Source: Acidobacteriota bacterium (lineage in GTDB: Bacteria; Acidobacteriota; UBA890; WLXD01). From it: a DNA stretch of 64,000 bases. The stretch is taken from NCBI GenBank assembly GCA_012103255.1, contig WLXD01000004.1:1-64000 (forward strand), read 5' to 3'. The notes under the pieces are model-generated. The model searched no databases. It was not told the DNA's origin and saw nothing but the letters and a program-made list of their open reading frames with translations. The position numbers were made by a program, and so were the translations under genes. Shown one piece after another: positions 28,835 to 49,794 of this stretch. Within the stretch, counting starts at the first letter, position 1, and the number at the start of each line of letters is the position of its first letter.

Positions 28835-28887
28835 CACAAACGAATCCGGGGAAGGCGCGTTCTGACCGTTCGATGAATCGCACCGGA

Positions 28888-28909
28888 CTTTTCTTCCCCG
28901 GAAGAAAAG
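28888..28909. promoter_or_regulatory. Perfect 10-bp inverted repeat in a divergent promoter
   Basis: CTTTTCTTCC-CC-GGAAGAAAAG lies between the divergent TlpA-like gene and the exported HMA-like gene. It lacks a T tail in either direction, so an operator is more likely than a terminator. Confidence 0.55.
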
Positions 28910-28947
28910 CTGCGCCGCACGCATCGAATACTAGTAGGAGGACAGGT

Positions 28948-29457
28948 ATGCGTATCGCCATTCTGCTGTTTGCGGCCGCGATGGTCGCGCCGTCGACCCC
29001 GGTGCTCGCCGAAGTCCATGCGGTCGAAGTCGTGCTCTTCATGCCGTGCAACGAGGAAACCGCTGCGGCGGCGATCGCCGCTCTGCGCCAGGTCCCGGGC
29101 GTGGAAGAGGTTCACGCCGCGGCTGGAGACCTACGCGTCCGTGCTCTGGTCGGTGACGGCTTCGAAACGCATCCGCTGGGCCTCGTTCAGATGTTGTGGG
29201 ATATGAAGCTCTTCCCAAACCGCATCTTCGTCGAAGCGACGGTCGTGAACCTGCATCTGGAGGATGGGCGGGAGGTCCGGATAGCGGGCACGCCGCACCG
29301 ATTCGCAGTGACAGGAGGGCCGTCTGAACATGTCGCAGGAGCCCGACCGATCTGGCTGCGCGCCGAGGTTCTCGACTGGATCGAGGACGAGGGTCCCGAC
29401 GTCAACTCTCCGTATTCGCTCCGCGTCATCGAGAGCCAGGATACACCCGACTCTTGA
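28948..29457 (+). CDS. Exported HMA-like metal-binding protein
   Basis: This 169-aa protein has a signal peptide (RIAILLFAAAMVAPSTPVLAE). The mature start resembles a heavy-metal-associated domain (beta strand VVLFMPC, helix EETAAAAIAALRQVPGVEEVHA), but the motif is MPCN, not GMTCxxC, so only one cysteine remains. The second half is not recognised. The RBS GGAGGAC is strong. It precedes, on the same strand, the MerR-type promoter of the ECF-sigma operon. A role in periplasmic mercury or copper handling is plausible; the missing second cysteine leaves it open. Confidence 0.6.
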   Translation: MRIAILLFAAAMVAPSTPVLAEVHAVEVVLFMPCNEETAAAAIAALRQVPGVEEVHAAAGDLRVRALVGDGFETHPLGLVQMLWDMKLFPNRIFVEATVVNLHLEDGREVRIAGTPHRFAVTGGPSEHVAGARPIWLRAEVLDWIEDEGPDVNSPYSLRVIESQDTPDS

Positions 29458-29526: not shown

Positions 29527-30210
29527 GTGCAATTCAAGACCACGAACAGGACTGACGAAGCGGCGATAGTCGCCGGCTGTCAACGCGGTGAGGATTGGGC
29601 GCGGCGGGCTCTTTTCGAACAACACCATCGCTCGATCTTCCGATTTCTGGTCGCACAATGTCGGAATCCTGAAACGGCTGAGGACCTCACCCAGGAGACT
29701 TTTCTGCGAGCCTATGAGGCCATCCCGAGATTCCGTGGAGAAGCCCGAGTCTCGTCGTGGATGACGCGTATTGCACTCAACTGCATGTACGGGGCAGGCA
29801 GGCGAAGGGACCGGGACCGTCGAAACCTCGAACAGATCCACGACGACGAATCCCGCGGCGGATGGGTGCGACCGCGGTGCGCTTCAGACGACTCTCAACT
29901 AGAACGCGACCTCGTTTGGCGCGGACTGGCGCGTCTTGATGGCGATGCCGCCGCGGTTATTGTGCTGCACGACATCGAGGGTCTGGGATACCGCGAGATA
30001 GCCGAGTCGCTCGAGATCGCGGTCGGAACCGTGGGCTCCCGGCTCAGTCGCGCCCGGGTCCGGCTGCGCGAGGCGATTATCGAACTATCCAGGGTGCCGG
30101 AAGAAATCGCGTCGCACGGACATCAAACATCCGAGACCGGCGCTCCGATGGGAGCTCCGGACGAAGAGGCAGCACCTGACGCTTCCCGTGGCGTCGTATG
30201 GAGCGAATAG
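29527..30210 (+). CDS. ECF sigma-70 factor
   Basis: This 227-aa sigma factor begins at a GTG. Region 2 has LFEQHHRSIFRFLVAQCRNPETAEDLTQETF (about 30-75). Region 4 has ERDLVWRGLARLDGDAAAVIVLHDIEGLGYREIAESLEIAVGTVGSRLSRAR (about 125-185). A C-terminal tail of about 40 residues is unusual. The anti-sigma gene follows immediately. Its transcription from a MerR-type promoter suggests that mercury raises the level of this sigma factor, which in turn should control further genes not identifiable here. Confidence 0.9.
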   Translation: MQFKTTNRTDEAAIVAGCQRGEDWARRALFEQHHRSIFRFLVAQCRNPETAEDLTQETFLRAYEAIPRFRGEARVSSWMTRIALNCMYGAGRRRDRDRRNLEQIHDDESRGGWVRPRCASDDSQLERDLVWRGLARLDGDAAAVIVLHDIEGLGYREIAESLEIAVGTVGSRLSRARVRLREAIIELSRVPEEIASHGHQTSETGAPMGAPDEEAAPDASRGVVWSE

Positions 30211-30212
30211 TG

Positions 30213-31058
30213 ATGACACCGACCGAATGCGAACGGCTGGCCGGGCAGTTCGGTCTGTACGTGGACGCTGAGATTGCGCCGAAGGCGCGGGCCCAGGTCG
30301 AGGCGCACCTCCAGGTCTGCGACACCTGCCGCAGGTCATGCGAAGAGCTCCAGCAGCTCAAGGAGCGGGTTGCCGGAATCGCCCTCCCCGAACCCGCCAG
30401 CCTAGAGATTTACGACCGGATAGAGACGGCTCTCCAGAGCCGCGGTCAAAGGGCACAGTGGCGCGCTCCGTTCATCCTGAGCCGCGAGGTCCGCTTGGCG
30501 GCGGCTACGTTCGTCGTTGCTCTCGCATTGGGGTATGGCTATCCATACCTAGCGGAGAGATCCAACCCCGCCCCCCGCGCCGCGCCGCTGGTACCTCCGG
30601 TCGCTCTTACCGTTGGCGACTACGTGCAGCAGGTACGCCGTGGCTCTCCGGACGCCTTCTGGAATCGGTACGCGGCGCTCGACGCTGATTTGAGGTCGGT
30701 GGCTGAACCGCTCGACTTCAATCCACGTATTCCGCGGCAACTCTCGGGCGGGTACGAACTGACCGGCGCCAAGCTCCTCAAGGATGTCTGCTGCTACACA
30801 GTCCAACTGCGCTACGAATCCGCGGGGCGTGTTCTCGACGTATTCCAATGCCATGACGGCCATCCGGTGTCATTCGGTCGAGCCCGGAGCCGCAGATTGG
30901 AGACGCAGACCGGCGTCTACACCAGCCTCGCGTGGGAGGGCACGTCACTCGTTGGCCGGGTGTTCAGCGACGGCGATGTGAACATCATCCTGGTCGGCCA
31001 GGTCGAAGATCACCTGGCCGACAGGATTACCGAGGAGTTCCTGAACGCGGGCAACTAG
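30213..31058 (+). CDS. Anti-sigma factor with zinc-finger (HC2-type) domain
   Basis: The 281-aa protein starts with the zf-HC2 pattern CERLAGQFGLYVDAEI...HLQVCDTCRRSC (H-x3-C-x2-C), the zinc anti-sigma fold. One membrane segment (AAATFVVALALGYGYPYL, about 95-115) is followed by a periplasmic domain of about 165 residues with a CC pair (DVCCYTVQL) and two further cysteines. The ATG at 30213 has a GGAG ribosome site; an ATG at 30198 inside the sigma gene is the alternative. The cysteine-rich exterior could bind mercury directly and release the sigma factor; this is inference. Confidence 0.82.
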   Translation: MTPTECERLAGQFGLYVDAEIAPKARAQVEAHLQVCDTCRRSCEELQQLKERVAGIALPEPASLEIYDRIETALQSRGQRAQWRAPFILSREVRLAAATFVVALALGYGYPYLAERSNPAPRAAPLVPPVALTVGDYVQQVRRGSPDAFWNRYAALDADLRSVAEPLDFNPRIPRQLSGGYELTGAKLLKDVCCYTVQLRYESAGRVLDVFQCHDGHPVSFGRARSRRLETQTGVYTSLAWEGTSLVGRVFSDGDVNIILVGQVEDHLADRITEEFLNAGN

Positions 31059-31074: not shown

Positions 31075-31593
31075 GTGGCTCTCGTGGCGGTCGTGTACGG
31101 CATGACCCGGCCGAGCCCGACGGCCCCCCCGAACATGACCACCGTCACGCGCGCCGCGTTTGTTCCCGAGCCGCTGCCTGCCGACTACACCGGCGTCGAT
31201 CTGGAGGGGCGCGCCTTCGCCGGTTCGCAGCTTCTGGGTAAAGTCGTGTTGCTGGACTTCTGGGCCGTCTGGTGCGCACCGTGCATCGACGCAGTGCCGA
31301 AGCTCAACCGGCTGCGCGCAGAGTTCCCCGACGAGGCGTTCGAGGTCATCGGCTACGCGGTCTTCTCCGGGCCTGGAGAAGACGTCGAGGCATTCGCCAC
31401 CGACCACGGCATCAACTATCGCGTCGTCGTCGGGGACAACGACCTGGCGTTGGACTATGGCGTCATCGGCTACCCCACCTACTTCCTCATCGACCAGCAA
31501 GGCCAGCGCGTGCGCAAGTACGTCGGCGCCCTGCCTGGCCTCGAAGACCGCGTGATCGCCGATGTACGTGCTCTCCTCGGTAGCTCACCCTGA
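31075..31593 (+). CDS. TlpA-like periplasmic thioredoxin
   Basis: The protein (172 aa, GTG start) has a short hydrophobic N-terminus and a TlpA/ResA thioredoxin domain with active site WCAPC in LDFWAVWCAPCIDAVPKL and the cis-proline loop GYPTYFLID. The frame is open only from 31045, so an upstream CTG at 31060 would add a little more of the membrane anchor. It sits between the anti-sigma factor and the selenocysteine lyase gene. A thioredoxin in this place could recharge the lyase's selenolate/selenosulfide pair or pass mercury by thiol exchange. Confidence 0.87.
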   Translation: MALVAVVYGMTRPSPTAPPNMTTVTRAAFVPEPLPADYTGVDLEGRAFAGSQLLGKVVLLDFWAVWCAPCIDAVPKLNRLRAEFPDEAFEVIGYAVFSGPGEDVEAFATDHGINYRVVVGDNDLALDYGVIGYPTYFLIDQQGQRVRKYVGALPGLEDRVIADVRALLGSSP

Positions 31594-31614: not shown

Positions 31615-32481
31615 ATGCGCAAACCGCCCGCGTTTATCCCCCCGCTAATGCTCGCGTTCGCTGCCATCGCGGCCTTGGCAATGCCCGGAATCGCCGGCGC
31701 GCAGGTGTTGTCCGACTCCGCCCAGGAGGTGGTGGAGTATCTGCTGCAAGACTGGGAACGTCAGTTCAGTTCGACATCGATTCCTCACGCGATCGAGTAC
31801 ATGGGTCTCGCCGCTGATGACGAGCTGCGGATCGAAGTGGTCGAGCACTTGCGGGCCAACGACGACCTAGCTCGGAACCTCCAATGGTGGGGAGCGAACA
31901 ACTACTTGTTCTCGAACCTGGAGAAGCGGCTAGCCAAGTATCTGATCTACATGCACGACCGAGAGGTGAGCACACCGTCGGCCGGCGAAGTGGCGACCGT
32001 GTTCGGCCTCAGCGTAGATGAACTCCGGCGTCGGCTTGACTTCATGGTCGCGGGCGGGTTTCTCCAGAGCGCCGACAGTCCGCTAGGCTACGAACTCGCG
32101 CCCGGGTTCCGTCGCTGGGCGGGCCCGCTTCAGCACAACTTCCATACCGTCCGTATCGAGGGAGAAGCGCCGCTCGACGTCTGGTGAGCTGTCGACTTCC
32201 TGCTGTTGGTCAACAGCGACGACTACAAGGACAGCCACTTCACGATCGAAGACTCATGCGCGCACGGCTACTTACCGATCACGGTAGAAATCGAAGCCGC
32301 AGAAATCACGCGCCTGAACCCTGACACGGTCTGGGTCCAGCGAGGCGGTGGTTGAGCAGTCGACAATCTCTTCTGGTCAGAAGAGCACCTGAACGAATGG
32401 CTCGACGAGCACCCCGAGTATCGTGAACTCACCCAGCAGCCGATTCGTGAATTCCTGGAGGACCTGAAAGAAGGCCGCTAG
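31615..32481 (+). CDS. merB: Exported MerB-family organomercurial lyase with two selenocysteines (UGA at codons 191 and 247)
   Basis: The frame stays open from 31615 to the TAG at 32479-32481 except for two UGA codons (32185-32187 and 32353-32355). The N-terminus is a signal peptide (LMLAFAAIAALAMPGIAGAQ). The middle is MerB-like: a winged helix TPSAGEVATVFGLSVDELRRRL, then HNFHTVRIEGEAPLDVW-U-AVD. MerB has WCALD here, with catalytic Cys96 and Asp99, so the first UGA sits exactly at Cys96 and the aspartate is kept. The second UGA (GGG-U-AVDNLFWSEEHLNEWL) falls at the position of Cys159. Each UGA is followed by a SECIS-like hairpin. Known MerB cleaves the carbon-mercury bond with this Cys-Asp-Cys triad. 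The export signal implies action outside the cytoplasm. Confidence 0.83.
32202..32217 (+). other. Bacterial SECIS-type hairpin after the first UGA of the lyase gene
   Basis: GCTGTT-GGTC-AACAGC is a perfect 6-bp stem with a GGUC loop beginning 21 bases past the UGA. Bacterial SECIS elements need a G in the first two loop positions at about 16-37 bases; E. coli fdhF has the same GGUC loop. Confidence 0.8.
32368..32385 (+). other. Bacterial SECIS-type hairpin after the second UGA of the lyase gene
   Basis: CTCTTCT-GGTC-AGAAGAG is a perfect 7-bp stem with the same GGUC loop, beginning 20 bases after the UGA at 32353-32355. The stem sequence differs from the first hairpin while loop and spacing are kept, which argues for selection on structure. 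Confidence 0.82.
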
Positions 32482-35347: not shown

Positions 35348-35968
35348 GTGAGCGAACTCGACGAGCTTTGGGGGACGCTCCGCTATATCGAGGATCGGTG
35401 GCGAAGCGCCGATAGGCGAACCCTGCGGGTTGCCTTCGCAGAACTGGCGAACGGTCGGCCCGTCTCCCCCAGCCGACTGGCCGAACTCGCTGGTACCACA
35501 GCCGAACAAGCTCGGCACGCCCTGAAGTCCGGTCCGGTTGGTCTCGACGAGGACGGCAACCTCAACGAACTATTCGGCGTCATGCTGGATGCCACCCTTC
35601 ACCGAGTGGAAGTGGGCGGACGGGTGATTTACGCGTGCTGCGCGTTGGTCGCGCATTGCGTGCCCGTCATCGTGAACGAGACCGTTCGATTGGAATCGAC
35701 GGACCCCGTCAGGCGTCGATTGGTGACCCTAGAACTCGACGCTAATGGGGTTCGCCGAGGTAGTGAAACAGTACGGGCCTGTTTCCCGACCCCTCCAGCC
35801 GGACCCGACATGGACTCGGTACGTCAGGCGTTCTGTTCTCACATCCAGTACTTCGCCGACGCGAGGGCTGCCGCCGCGTTCGCCAGCCAGGACGAGCGAC
35901 GCCGAATCGTGGAGCCTGGCGACTTGCACGAACTCGCCCTCGCCACGGTTTCTCGTATCTGGTCCTAG
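35348..35968 (+). CDS. Alkylmercury lyase (MerB)-family protein with cysteines
   Basis: This 206-aa protein (GTG start) shows the MerB layout: winged-helix RPVSPSRLAELAGTTAEQARHAL, then GRVIYACCALVAHCVP, where cysteine 98 matches MerB Cys96, and VRQAFCSHIQYFADARAAAAF, where cysteine 163 matches Cys159. The catalytic Asp99 position is valine 101, so normal protonolysis of the carbon-mercury bond should be impaired or altered. There is no signal peptide, so it is cytoplasmic. It converges with merT, 16 bases away, and lies divergent to the BlaI-controlled CPBP operon. It may bind mercury or act on another substrate. Confidence 0.8.
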   Translation: MSELDELWGTLRYIEDRWRSADRRTLRVAFAELANGRPVSPSRLAELAGTTAEQARHALKSGPVGLDEDGNLNELFGVMLDATLHRVEVGGRVIYACCALVAHCVPVIVNETVRLESTDPVRRRLVTLELDANGVRRGSETVRACFPTPPAGPDMDSVRQAFCSHIQYFADARAAAAFASQDERRRIVEPGDLHELALATVSRIWS

Positions 35969-35984: not shown

Positions 35985-36350
35985 CTACAGACTCTGTAGC
36001 AGCGACGCGGTCCAAGCCGGAAACAACTTGAGAAGCAGGGCCACGAATACGACCAGAGTGGCGACTGAGAGCACCGACAGTCGAAACCTCTTGCCAACGA
36101 GTTCGCAGCCTGCGGTTGAGCACCGCTTCTGGTCATGGACATAGAGCCACCAGGCTCCAACGACCAGAGACACGCCGAGCGGGAGAGTGATCCACTCGTA
36201 GCGCATCATGGTCATCATGATGCCCGCGCCTGCGACGCCGCTGAGAATCAAAGCAAGCGGCAAGAGACAGCAGCTTGCGGCGAGCAGCGCACCGGCGACC
36301 CCGCTCAGGTTCGCGGCGGCTGAGCGCGGCGTCGGTTGAGCCTCGTTCAC
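35985..36350 (-). CDS. merT: Mercuric transport membrane protein
   Basis: This 121-aa protein has three membrane segments. The first holds the vicinal cysteine pair in LLAASCCLLPLALIL that accepts Hg(II) from MerP, and a second cysteine pair (CSTAGCEL) lies in the cytoplasmic loop. It starts at a GTG overlapping the merP stop (GTGA). The family carries Hg(II) inward to a reductase; no merA is present in the island, so the fate of imported mercury is open. Confidence 0.87.
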   Translation of the reverse strand: MNEAQPTPRSAAANLSGVAGALLAASCCLLPLALILSGVAGAGIMMTMMRYEWITLPLGVSLVVGAWWLYVHDQKRCSTAGCELVGKRFRLSVLSVATLVVFVALLLKLFPAWTASLLQSL

Positions 36351-36685
36351 GGCGTATCCGATTCCTGGTTCTCGGATAGCTTGGCCACGAAGCCAATCTC
36401 GTTGACCGCCTCGATCAGGCGCTTGGGGCCGACCTCCTCCGAACGGTATTCCACCTCCGCACATTTCTCCTCGTACGAGACCTTTGCCTCCACGACCCCA
36501 TCAACCGCGAGTAGTGCCTGGCGCACGGCCAGAGGGCACCCCCCTCACGTCATGCCCTCGACGTCCAAGAAGACCGTTTTTGTCTCCACCGGCTCCTGGT
36601 CGGCAAACGCTGCCGCGTGGATGAATCCAAGGACCATCGCTAGCAACAAAGTGGCCGCCATCATTCGCCCTGGTTTGAACTGCAT
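36347..36685 (-). CDS. merP: Periplasmic mercury-binding protein MerP with selenocysteine at the metal site
   Basis: The 112-codon frame has a signal peptide (MMAATLLLAMVLGFIHAAAFA) and one HMA domain. The metal motif reads GMT-U-GGC: the UGA at 36545-36547 (codon 47) sits at the first cysteine of GMTCxxC, and cysteine 50 is retained. The rest of the domain (LAVRQALLAVDGVVEAKV ... LIEAVNEIGFVAKL) is intact in one frame, so the UGA is the only interruption. A SECIS-type hairpin follows. A selenolate binds mercury more tightly than a thiolate, which fits a scavenger role. It lies between the metallochaperone and merT in the merR operon. Confidence 0.82.
36514..36539 (-). other. Bacterial SECIS-type hairpin after the merP UGA
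   Basis: On the minus strand, GTGCC and GGCAC pair, then TGGC pairs with GCCA after a 3-base bulge. The apical loop is CGUGC, with its G at position 19 after the UGA. Distance, stem and loop G fit the bacterial SECIS rules, although the loop differs from GGUC. Confidence 0.65.
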
Positions 36686-36700
36686 CGTTACTCTCATTGG

Positions 36701-37165
36701 CTAGGTGGTTTTGATACGGAGACGTGCCGCGTCGATCTCCGCGTTCACGGCACCCAGGCAGCACTTCCCGGTCGGGTTCCGAACTTCGCATGCACACGCC
36801 TGAGCGCTGATGGCCGTTCTGATCTCGGCTGCGATAGCCGAATCGCGAGACGTTCGGAGTTCGTTCTCGATGTCGCGGCGGCGCTTGTCGAAGCAATAGC
36901 AGAGCAGAGCATCGCCGCTGGGGTTTTTGAAGCCGGGCTCCACGTTCAGCGCGTCGGAGCGGTAGGTCGCCCCAGGATTCTCACCGAAATAGACCACGTC
37001 GCAGTTCGTTTCCTGACAGATCCAGAACTTCTGTTTGGGCGGGATCGGGGTACGAAGAAGCGCTGCAACAGTCAGCCACTCAACGTGTCTCGCCCGCTGG
37101 CCGCAAGACACACAGGCGTCAGCTACCTCGGACGACTCCGTCCGGTCGCAGCACGCTCCACTCAC
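36701..37165 (-). CDS. Zinc/iron-sulfur metallochaperone (CopZ N-terminal/BFD-like)
   Basis: This 154-aa protein has an N-terminal zinc-binding region (SGACCDR, ACVSCGQRA and ICQETNCDVVYF) and a C-terminal BFD-type [2Fe-2S] site (ALLCYCFDKRRRDI with CACEVRNPTGKCC). Proteins of this kind are frequent in mer operons and in Archaeoglobus CopZ, where they deliver metal to a transporter. It starts at a GTG overlapping the merR stop. It probably binds Hg(II) or donates electrons in the pathway. Confidence 0.82.
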   Translation of the reverse strand: MSGACCDRTESSEVADACVSCGQRARHVEWLTVAALLRTPIPPKQKFWICQETNCDVVYFGENPGATYRSDALNVEPGFKNPSGDALLCYCFDKRRRDIENELRTSRDSAIAAEIRTAISAQACACEVRNPTGKCCLGAVNAEIDAARLRIKTT

Positions 37166-37593
37166 TGTTCACTCTCACGAGAAGTCGACGCCAGATCCTC
37201 GTCGAGAGCCTCTAAGATCGGGCACTCGGTTGCCGACGCCGTGCCTTCCTCGCACGTGGTCACGAGGCTCACGAGCGCCTCGCGCATAGCGGCGACTGTC
37301 GCGATCTTCCGGTCAAGTTCCGCAATCTTGCTGAGGGCGCGACGCTGCACGTCTGCGCAAGATGCCTCCGGGCTTACCCGGAGCGAGAGCAGTTCATCGA
37401 TCTCAACAAGCGAGAAGCCCAGTTCCTGGGCACGCTTGATGAACCGGATGCGCGCAACGGTTTCATCTGGGTAATGCCGAAAGCCTGCCGCCGCCTTTGG
37501 TGGGACGGGGATCAGCCCACGCCGCTGGTAGTAGCGGACTGTTTCCACGCCGACGCCAGCCTGCTCAGCAACGCTTCCGATAGTCATGTGCAT
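37162..37593 (-). CDS. merR: Mercury-responsive MerR regulator
   Basis: This 143-aa regulator has the MerR winged helix (TIGSVAEQAGVGVETVRYYQRRGLI) and the long dimerisation helix. The three Hg(II)-binding cysteines are in place: SCADVQ, TTCEEG and ECPILEAL. With mercury, MerR untwists overlong-spacer promoters. Its own promoter and the sigma-factor promoter at 29454 share the same dyad, so it likely controls both. The next gene overlaps it. Confidence 0.93.
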   Translation of the reverse strand: MHMTIGSVAEQAGVGVETVRYYQRRGLIPVPPKAAAGFRHYPDETVARIRFIKRAQELGFSLVEIDELLSLRVSPEASCADVQRRALSKIAELDRKIATVAAMREALVSLVTTCEEGTASATECPILEALDEDLASTSRESEQ

Positions 37594-47477: not shown

Positions 47478-48089
47478 ATGAAGGTCGAGGTCCCCGAGTA
47501 CTCACTCGCCGAGTCTGCGCCTGTCGATCCGAGTCGAACCGCGTTGATCGTGGTCGACATGCAGAACGATTTCGTGCGCCTGGATGGAGCGCTCCCGATC
47601 GAAGATGCTGCCGGGACGATCGGTGCTATCGAGCAACTGAGGAACTTCGCAAGGCGGGAATCGATTCCTGTGTTCTACACACAGGACTCGCACTATGCGG
47701 GCGACCCGGAATTCGCCATCTGGGGTGAACACTGCTGCGTGGGCACGGACGGATGGGAGATCGTTCAAGAACTTGCTCCCGACGAGGCTCTCGACGACCG
47801 TGTCTTCCGCAAGGACCGCTACGACGGCTTCTTCGGAACGAATCTCGACACCACGCTTCGGCAGCGAGGTATCGACACGCTGATCATCTGCGGCACCGTC
47901 GCGAACATCTGCGTGCTCTACACGGCGGCAAGCGCGGCGATCCGTTGGTACCACGTGATCCTTCCGGTCGACGCAGTGTCAGCGATCACCGAGTTCGACC
48001 TGCAACTCACCATCAGACAGGTCGGCTGGCTGTTTCAGGGAACGATCACCAGGTCGAGCGCCCTCTGCGCGACCGAATCTGTCGGCTAG
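47478..48089 (+). CDS. Isochorismatase-family cysteine hydrolase
   Basis: This 203-aa protein has the cysteine hydrolase triad: aspartate in IVVDMQNDF, lysine in VFRKDRYDGF and cysteine in TVANICVLYTAA. The close relatives include nicotinamidases and N-carbamoylsarcosine amidases; a nicotinamidase-type metal site (D-x-H-H) is not complete, though FYTQDSHY gives part of it. Substrate uncertain. It is convergent with fdhD, overlapping by 4 bases. Confidence 0.88.
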   Translation: MKVEVPEYSLAESAPVDPSRTALIVVDMQNDFVRLDGALPIEDAAGTIGAIEQLRNFARRESIPVFYTQDSHYAGDPEFAIWGEHCCVGTDGWEIVQELAPDEALDDRVFRKDRYDGFFGTNLDTTLRQRGIDTLIICGTVANICVLYTAASAAIRWYHVILPVDAVSAITEFDLQLTIRQVGWLFQGTITRSSALCATESVG

Positions 48090-48892
48090 ATCAGCCGCTC
48101 GGCTCCCGAATACACCACGCACTCTTCGCCGCGCACGAAGCCGATCAGAGTCATCCCGCTCTCGACGGCCAAGTCCACCGCGAGGCTCGATGCCGCCGAG
48201 ACGCCCGCAACCAACGGGATGCCCGCGACCAGCGCTTTCTGAACCACTTCGAAGGACTGCCGGCCGGAAACAACGAGCATGTGTCCACTCAACGGAAGCG
48301 TTTCGTTCAGATAGGCCCAGCCGATGATCTTGTCGATGGCGTTGTGGCGCCCCACATCCTCGCGAACGACGAGCATTTCACCATCCGGTGACACGAGTCC
48401 TGCGGCGTGGACCCCGCCCGTTTTGTCGAACGTTGGTTGAGCTTCTCGGAGGGTCGGCAATGCGGCTGTGACGGCATCGATTCGAAAGCGCGTGGCATCA
48501 CGGAGCCGGTCGTGCGTGACGCGCACGGCGTCGATGCTCGCCTTCCCGCAGATCCCGCACGATGACGTCGCATAAAAGTTCCGATGCCAGTCTGGCTCTC
48601 TGTCGAGCCCCGGCACGAGCGTCACCTCGACCACGTTTTCAGGATTCAGCGCATCCTCATCGAGACAGGCGCTGATTGTCGCGATCTCGCCGAGACCGAC
48701 AATCGTCTCTGTGTACAGGAATCCGGCTGCGAGTTCACGATCGTGTCCGGGCATGCGCATCGTAACGGCGACGGCCTCACCCCCGAGACGGATCTCGCAG
48801 GGCTCCTCGATCGTCAGCCGATCTGTTTCGACGCTCCGCCCGGCGCGCGTCACCCGCGTGACTGGTTTGTCGATCGCTCCGTGATCCGTCAC
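48086..48892 (-). CDS. fdhD: Formate dehydrogenase accessory sulfurtransferase
   Basis: This 268-aa protein starts at a GTG overlapping the sco1 stop (GTGA). The catalytic cysteine loop is SSCGICGKASI; other family segments are EEPCEIRLGG, VREDVGRHNAIDKIIG and LSGHMLVVSGRQSFE. FdhD sulfurates the molybdenum cofactor of formate dehydrogenases, many of which are selenoproteins. It supports the idea that the host carries such an enzyme, but none is in the window. Confidence 0.94.
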   Translation of the reverse strand: MTDHGAIDKPVTRVTRAGRSVETDRLTIEEPCEIRLGGEAVAVTMRMPGHDRELAAGFLYTETIVGLGEIATISACLDEDALNPENVVEVTLVPGLDREPDWHRNFYATSSCGICGKASIDAVRVTHDRLRDATRFRIDAVTAALPTLREAQPTFDKTGGVHAAGLVSPDGEMLVVREDVGRHNAIDKIIGWAYLNETLPLSGHMLVVSGRQSFEVVQKALVAGIPLVAGVSAASSLAVDLAVESGMTLIGFVRGEECVVYSGAERLI

Positions 48893-49794
48893 CGACCGCG
48901 ACCTGCGGCGTTCTCCGCCGCGCCGAGCAGGTCTTCTGGCGTCCACGAATTCCCGATGAATGTCTCGAGAACACGGCCATCGCTCCCCACAAGAACGGTA
49001 CGCAGCGAATGAACCAGCTCCGTGCCATCTGGCCTGAACCGCAGACCCGTGTACTCGCCGAGTTCGAACAGACCTGCGGTCGTCGAGGTGGCAAAGCGCC
49101 AACGTTCCAGAGCCGACGGCTCATCAGTAGGCAAGTATCGCTGGGCGTACTCCATGAGTACTTCGGGCGTGTCGTAGTCTGGATCGATGCTGAGCGACAG
49201 GAGGCGCAGATCGCCATAGCGTGCCGGATCGCTTGCGACGGCCTGGTAGACCGCGTCGAAGTGCTCGGACATCCGCGGACAGAAGTCCGGTATCGGGCAG
49301 CGCGTGTAAATGAAGGTGAACGCGTAGGGCGTGCCGCCATAGCTGGCGAGCCCGAGAGTATTGCCCGATTGATCGATCAGATCGATGGACGGTACTTCGC
49401 TCCCCACGTCAGGAGCCGGCACTACCGCTTCCACGGCCGCACCCTCAGCTGGAGCGGTGCGCACCACGACGTCTTCGAGCCAGCTCGCCGCACCCGAAAC
49501 AACCAGCGTCGCGCTCACGCTCGCCCCGGGCTTCGCTGCGCCAAACACCCAGTCATCGCGGATATTGAAGGGCATGGTCATTGCCCCCATGAAATCAGCC
49601 ACAGGCTCGTGATCGACGGTGACGGTGCGCTGCTCCCGATCGACAGAAACCACGGTTCCGCTCAAGTCGTAACGCCGTGCGTCTGCGTCAGCTTCATCCG
49701 CCGGGTCCGACCCGGCGCAGGCGCCCAACGTCACGATCGCCAGACCTACAAGAGCTGCGAGGGCTAGACGACGCAGTGCAGGGTAGTTGCTCAC
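48889..49794 (-). CDS. SCO1/SenC lipoprotein with a CusF-like copper domain
   Basis: This 301-aa lipoprotein (lipobox VTLGACA) joins two copper modules. The N-terminal one is CusF-like (VSVDREQRTVTVDHEPVADFMGAMTMPFNI). The C-terminal one is an SCO thioredoxin domain with cysteines in YTRCPIPDFCPRM (CX5C, longer than the usual CX3C) and the histidine in ELVHSLRTVLV. It probably delivers copper to cytochrome oxidase. It overlaps fadJ at its start and fdhD at its end. Confidence 0.88.
   Translation of the reverse strand: MSNYPALRRLALAALVGLAIVTLGACAGSDPADEADADARRYDLSGTVVSVDREQRTVTVDHEPVADFMGAMTMPFNIRDDWVFGAAKPGASVSATLVVSGAASWLEDVVVRTAPAEGAAVEAVVPAPDVGSEVPSIDLIDQSGNTLGLASYGGTPYAFTFIYTRCPIPDFCPRMSEHFDAVYQAVASDPARYGDLRLLSLSIDPDYDTPEVLMEYAQRYLPTDEPSALERWRFATSTTAGLFELGEYTGLRFRPDGTELVHSLRTVLVGSDGRVLETFIGNSWTPEDLLGAAENAAGRGR

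Follow-up and report, generated by a model that had tools for sequence, protein, structure and literature searches.

Among the known enzymatic routes by which methylmercury is broken, MerB is the main one. Canonical MerB is defined by the four signature positions Cys96, Asp99, Cys117 and Cys159 (PMC8261052); mercury is bound by Cys96 and Cys159 with the assistance of Asp99, and Hg(II) is subsequently removed by external thiols or by MerA (PMC4525700, PMC8261052). A MerB-related selenoprotein has also been described in an organometal context, namely SaoL, a MerB-like organometallic lyase represented by the model NF040728 (Haft and Gwadz 2023, as given in PMC13188914). A review from 2026 lists 119 prokaryotic selenoprotein families, among which SaoL, with one selenocysteine (Sec) in a CU motif, is the sole entry of the MerB type (PMC13188914). 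The gene analysed here is predicted to encode a MerB-family protein with Sec at both catalytic cysteine positions, a form which is absent from this catalogue (PMC13188914). Searching the literature for Sec in MerB revealed nothing closer than SaoL, and precedent may remain in the primary SaoL/Tso papers. The view of the initial annotation that selenium in such a lyase lacked precedent was too strong, since a MerB relative with one Sec is catalogued. Judged from the sequence, the new elements would be the double catalytic Sec and the export signal, in a protein of the already known MerB/SaoL kind.

The gene is located in the middle of the window, i.e. the whole analysed stretch of 64,000 nucleotides of acidobacterial DNA. 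Its coordinates had been given correctly, as re-reading of the frame returned 288 residues in which codons 191 and 247, both TGA, are the sole interruptions, with a GGAG ribosome-binding-like motif immediately 5′ of the ATG (Table 1). The residues flanking the first UGA are W-U-A-V-D and those flanking the second one are GGG-U-A-V-D-N. A classical export signal, already proposed for this protein, was recognized by eye at the N-terminus; the N-termini of the orthologues described below are hydrophobic alike, and residues 1-28 were modeled by AlphaFold with a pLDDT below 50.

Table 1. Features of the double-Sec MerB-like locus and its surroundings (positions in the window)
Feature	Position	Strand	Remarks
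194-aa protein, probably exported	28873..29457	+	conserved synteny 5′ of the ECF sigma gene (three genomes); operon membership uncertain
ECF sigma factor	29527..30210	+	syntenic in genus
Anti-sigma factor, zf-HC2 domain	30198..31058	+	syntenic in genus
TlpA/ResA-type thiol-disulfide reductase (WCAPC)	31075..31593	+	directly upstream; start codon uncertain; TGA is an ordinary stop
Double-Sec MerB-like gene (predicted)	31615..32481	+	288 aa, Sec191, Sec247, TAG stop
N-terminal export signal, residues 1-30	31615..31704	+	by eye, MRKPPAFIPPLMLAFAAIAALAMPGIAGAQ
UGA codon 191 (Sec)	32185..32187	+	alignment partner MerB Cys96
Asp194 codon	32194..32196	+	alignment partner MerB Asp99
SECIS-like hairpin 1	32202..32217	+	6-bp Watson-Crick stem (32202-32207 / 32212-32217) plus one T-G, GGTC loop 32208-32211
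Cys215 codon	32257..32259	+	alignment partner MerB Cys117
UGA codon 247 (Sec)	32353..32355	+	alignment partner MerB Cys159
SECIS-like hairpin 2	32368..32385	+	7-bp stem (32368-32374 / 32379-32385), GGTC loop 32375-32378
Second, cytosolic MerB-like protein	35348..35968	+	vicinal Cys95-Cys96; Val for Asp99
MerT-like gene	35985-36464		mer-like cluster
CopZ-like gene	36701-37165		mer-like cluster
MerR-family regulator of mer-like cluster	37162..37593	-	with MerT-like and CopZ-like genes

Homologues were searched with stops read through in 396 Acidobacteriota genomes, and the overall search covered roughly 500 Acidobacteriota genomes, plasmids and viral contigs. The 396 genomes contained three orthologues, with 77, 75 and 52% identity to the window protein; two belong to the same genus (G001 and G017) and one to a distant family (G245), all of them in metagenome-assembled or draft genomes. 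Each orthologue has exactly two in-frame TGAs, and in all four genomes both are found in the same two alignment columns, so that UGA, and no codon for an unrelated residue, occupies both positions throughout. Only these four genomes were found to carry the gene in the class- and phylum-wide Acidobacteriota searches. A scan of genome contigs for close relatives returned two loci which, their contigs being equal in length to those of G001 and G017, appear to be identical with these records. Due to the fact that the Acidobacteriota search revealed no Cys-containing orthologue, the comparison of Cys with Sec relies on MerB itself. No homologue was present in the plasmid collection or in IMG/VR, and these provided no sign of mobility. 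A match in G394 (25% identity, N-terminal region) disappeared with the profile and was discarded as fortuitous.

By standard annotation only 31615-32187 would be called, and accordingly the UGAs might terminate translation, the locus being a pseudogene, a sequencing error or the gene for a functional truncated protein of 190 residues. However, the same two UGAs recur in four independent genomes, which rules out the assembly error that had been named as a possible objection. Moreover, the within-genus dN/dS was 0.10-0.30 between the UGAs and 0.05-0.11 past the second UGA, and these low values indicate protein-level selection on the sequence past both codons. In comparison with G245 the dN/dS estimates were noisy and exceeded those within the genus, with values of up to ~1 between the two UGAs; they are inflated because the hairpin described below also constrains synonymous sites.

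For the analysis of the downstream RNA structures, the TGA codons of both strands were scanned for hairpins in six regions from the four genomes, the window being one of them (~159 kb in total). A GGTC-loop hairpin with at least 6 Watson-Crick pairs was detected 3′ of all eight UGAs of the gene in the four genomes, and among 3,704 TGAs, a total including these eight, no others were followed by at least 5 pairs on a GGTC loop. The stems of 6 and 7 bp and the GGUC loops of the initial annotation were thus recovered, while its distance of 20-21 bases fits the loops, located 20 and 19 bases past the UGA, and not the stems, which begin at 14 (hairpin 1) and 12 (hairpin 2) bases. In hairpin 1 the four genomes share 18 identical nucleotides. 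In the comparison of the window with G245 the eight consecutive codons 196-203 are identical, and across the domain 40/68 of the codons for the same residue are identical. In hairpin 2 of G245 two pairs differ, the innermost (C-G in place of T-A) and the outermost (T-A in place of C-G), both changes being compensatory. The Rfam SECIS_1 model had no match in the genome, nor in any of the control genomes. Taken from the comparison of these sequences, it is strongly supported that each UGA is read via the GGUC-loop hairpin just downstream.

The Sec machinery, which the initial annotation had called for, was found in the genome with tRNA-Sec (selC, anticodon UCA), SelA, SelB and SelD, the last with a UGA in its frame, and the other three genomes likewise encode SelA and SelB. 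The SelD gene (G000:C2:892635-893561) carries its in-frame UGA in an SGGUAAK motif followed by a hairpin, and SelD of this genome is likely a selenoprotein itself. A global reassignment of UGA was rejected, since UGA is the ordinary stop of 9 of the 25 window genes, among them the TlpA gene directly upstream. By comparative criteria the double-Sec gene is a real selenoprotein gene, and termination at the UGAs is very improbable in view of the full machinery, the recurrence of both codons, the purifying selection past them and the unique hairpins with compensatory changes.

Homology to MerB was assessed at the level of sequence and fold. With U read as C, which favours a MerB match, Pfam MerB (PF03243) matched residues 176-270 (E 1.5e-5, 25.4 bits, marginally below the gathering cut-off of 27) and left the N-terminal half uncovered. 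A sequence search of the PDB, based on the same reading of U, returned MerB2 (5c17), in whose alignment U191 is paired with the WCA cysteine and U247 with the GGTC cysteine. Since this reading favours the result, both UGAs were masked as X for the profile comparison, in which the profile of the double-Sec family was aligned with four annotated plasmid MerBs adjoining merA. This hhalign comparison resulted in an E of 1.7e-8 over 148 columns and paired U191 with Cys96, D194 with Asp99, C215 with Cys117 and U247 with Cys159; Asp194 and Cys215 are invariant in all four orthologues. The score against NF033555, the NCBIfam model of MerB, was 21.3 bits versus a cut-off of 200, and the protein is thus homologous to MerB, yet outside the curated MerB equivalog.

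AlphaFold modeling on the four-sequence alignment reached a pLDDT of 78, and in a fold search against the PDB the eleven best matches were all MerB or MerB2, with the next one at E 0.12. Superposition of the full-length model gave an rmsd of about 14 Å, which is probably due to domain orientation, and therefore the C-terminal domain was folded separately. This domain alone matched MerB and MerB2 with TM scores of 0.62-0.72 and rmsd values of 2.6-3.2 (MerB2: TM 0.71, rmsd 3.1). The protein hence resembles MerB (PF03243, NF033555; PDB 3f0o, 1s6l) and MerB2 (5c17) in the fold of the C-terminal domain, the triad positions, the equivalent of Cys117 and a helical, winged-helix-like N-terminal region. 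It differs from them in that both catalytic cysteines are encoded as Sec, in its signal peptide and extra helical region, in its location beside TlpA and an ECF sigma pair and not beside merA, and in its scores below the curated MerB cut-offs. Membership in the MerB family, as originally proposed, is supported by the masked alignment, the Pfam match and the fold; the placement of Sec at both catalytic Cys positions agrees with the masked columns and with UGA in all four genomes. From SaoL, likewise a MerB-related selenoprotein, the protein is set apart by the catalogue description, as it would have two Sec in WUAVD and GGGU and no CU motif, and its score against NF040728 was 13.8 bits versus a cut-off of 140.

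Mercury is bound very tightly by selenolates, and the main rival to a lyase is the same double-Sec protein acting as a metal-binding scavenger, whose selenolates would serve as a sponge for, or a chaperone of, Hg(II), methylmercury or a different soft metal. The structurally related NosL, a copper chaperone, provides an analogy: it is extracytoplasmic, as is predicted from the sequence here, and among the fold classes that recurred it followed MerB, even though as a weak match only (ranks 14-16 and 19, E 1.2 or worse) and with no sequence match to the double-Sec protein seen. Moreover, no canonical MerA above the cut-off was found in the genome, which encodes five related flavoproteins, all below it, and turnover could be slowed by very strong Se-Hg bonds, which would speak for binding rather than catalysis. 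However, the fold match to MerB is far better than that to NosL, and the equivalents of the catalytic Asp99 and of Cys117 are invariant in all four genomes, so that this alternative is considered unlikely, albeit the most serious one.

The gene order ECF sigma factor, zf-HC2 anti-sigma factor, TlpA and double-Sec MerB is kept in the genus, and the TlpA gene is located directly upstream of the double-Sec gene in all four genomes including the distant G245. This adjacency is the strongest functional link of the gene. The probably exported protein of 194 residues further upstream had no Pfam or NCBIfam match. In G001 and G017 the convergent next gene encodes a second MerB-like protein and is followed by the genes for a regulator of the MerR family and for a CopZ-type protein. 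The second MerB-like gene of the window is located at 35-38 kb together with MerR, CopZ-type and MerT-like genes. No mer genes were found near the double-Sec gene of G245. The second MerB-like protein is kept in the genus with Val or Ile in place of the catalytic Asp99, and by its sequence it is probably not a canonical MerB and perhaps a metal-binding protein or an altered lyase.

The presence of this second MerB-like protein also fits a MerB-type lyase acting on a different substrate, such as organotin, organolead, organoarsenic or an unknown natural organometal, comparable to the proposal for the SAO system, whose SaoL is described as organometallic. Metal-range shifts are furthermore known for MerB variants at position 99 (PMC8261052). 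However, the MerR, MerT-like and MerB-like neighbours in the genus point to mercury, and a non-mercury substrate is regarded as less probable still than a scavenging function.

The best explanation, to which a probability of roughly two in three is assigned, is an exported MerB-family lyase of organomercurials (or organometals) whose active site holds a pair of selenolates. SelB with Sec-tRNA would read each UGA, guided by the downstream GGUC-loop hairpin, and the protein would be exported by its Sec signal to the cell envelope. By analogy to the MerB mechanism, R-Hg+ would be bound by the two selenolates, Asp194 would help to protonate the carbon, R-H would leave, and Hg(II) would be kept by the selenolate pair until its removal by thiols. 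Two selenolates in MerB geometry would bind R-Hg+ more tightly and be deprotonated at lower pH. In the oxidising envelope the Sec pair would need a reductant, for which TlpA is the natural candidate; based on the gene order, the adjoining TlpA-type reductase may keep the selenol pair reduced or supply thiols, and the co-located ECF sigma/anti-sigma pair upstream may act as regulators. The sequence, its conservation, the hairpins, the Sec machinery, the homology and the gene order were established directly, and Sec content, export, lyase activity, TlpA partnership and ECF control are all to be understood as inferred. The wider proposal, that Acidobacteriota possess an envelope pathway of organomercury demethylation consisting of a selenolate-pair MerB, a dedicated TlpA and ECF control, independent of the cytoplasmic MerB-MerA hand-off, is tentative and held to have slightly less than even chances.

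Demethylation could, as suggested by these predictions, occur outside the cytoplasm. An enzyme in which Sec naturally takes the place of both catalytic cysteines would allow a direct test of how selenium affects the cleavage of C-Hg bonds, the release of the metal and the range of substrates, and a double-Sec MerB bears on selenium-mercury antagonism. As annotation ends at the UGA, genes of this kind would escape surveys of merB.

Two tandem tRNA-like matches just under the cut-off of the tRNA-Sec model were additionally observed at G000:C1:907158-907347 and are probably long-arm tRNAs of the Ser/Leu type. Elsewhere in the window, an FdhD-like protein with a GICGKASID motif (by eye) is encoded at 48086-49102 on the reverse strand, which suggests a formate dehydrogenase in this genome and, possibly, another selenoprotein there.
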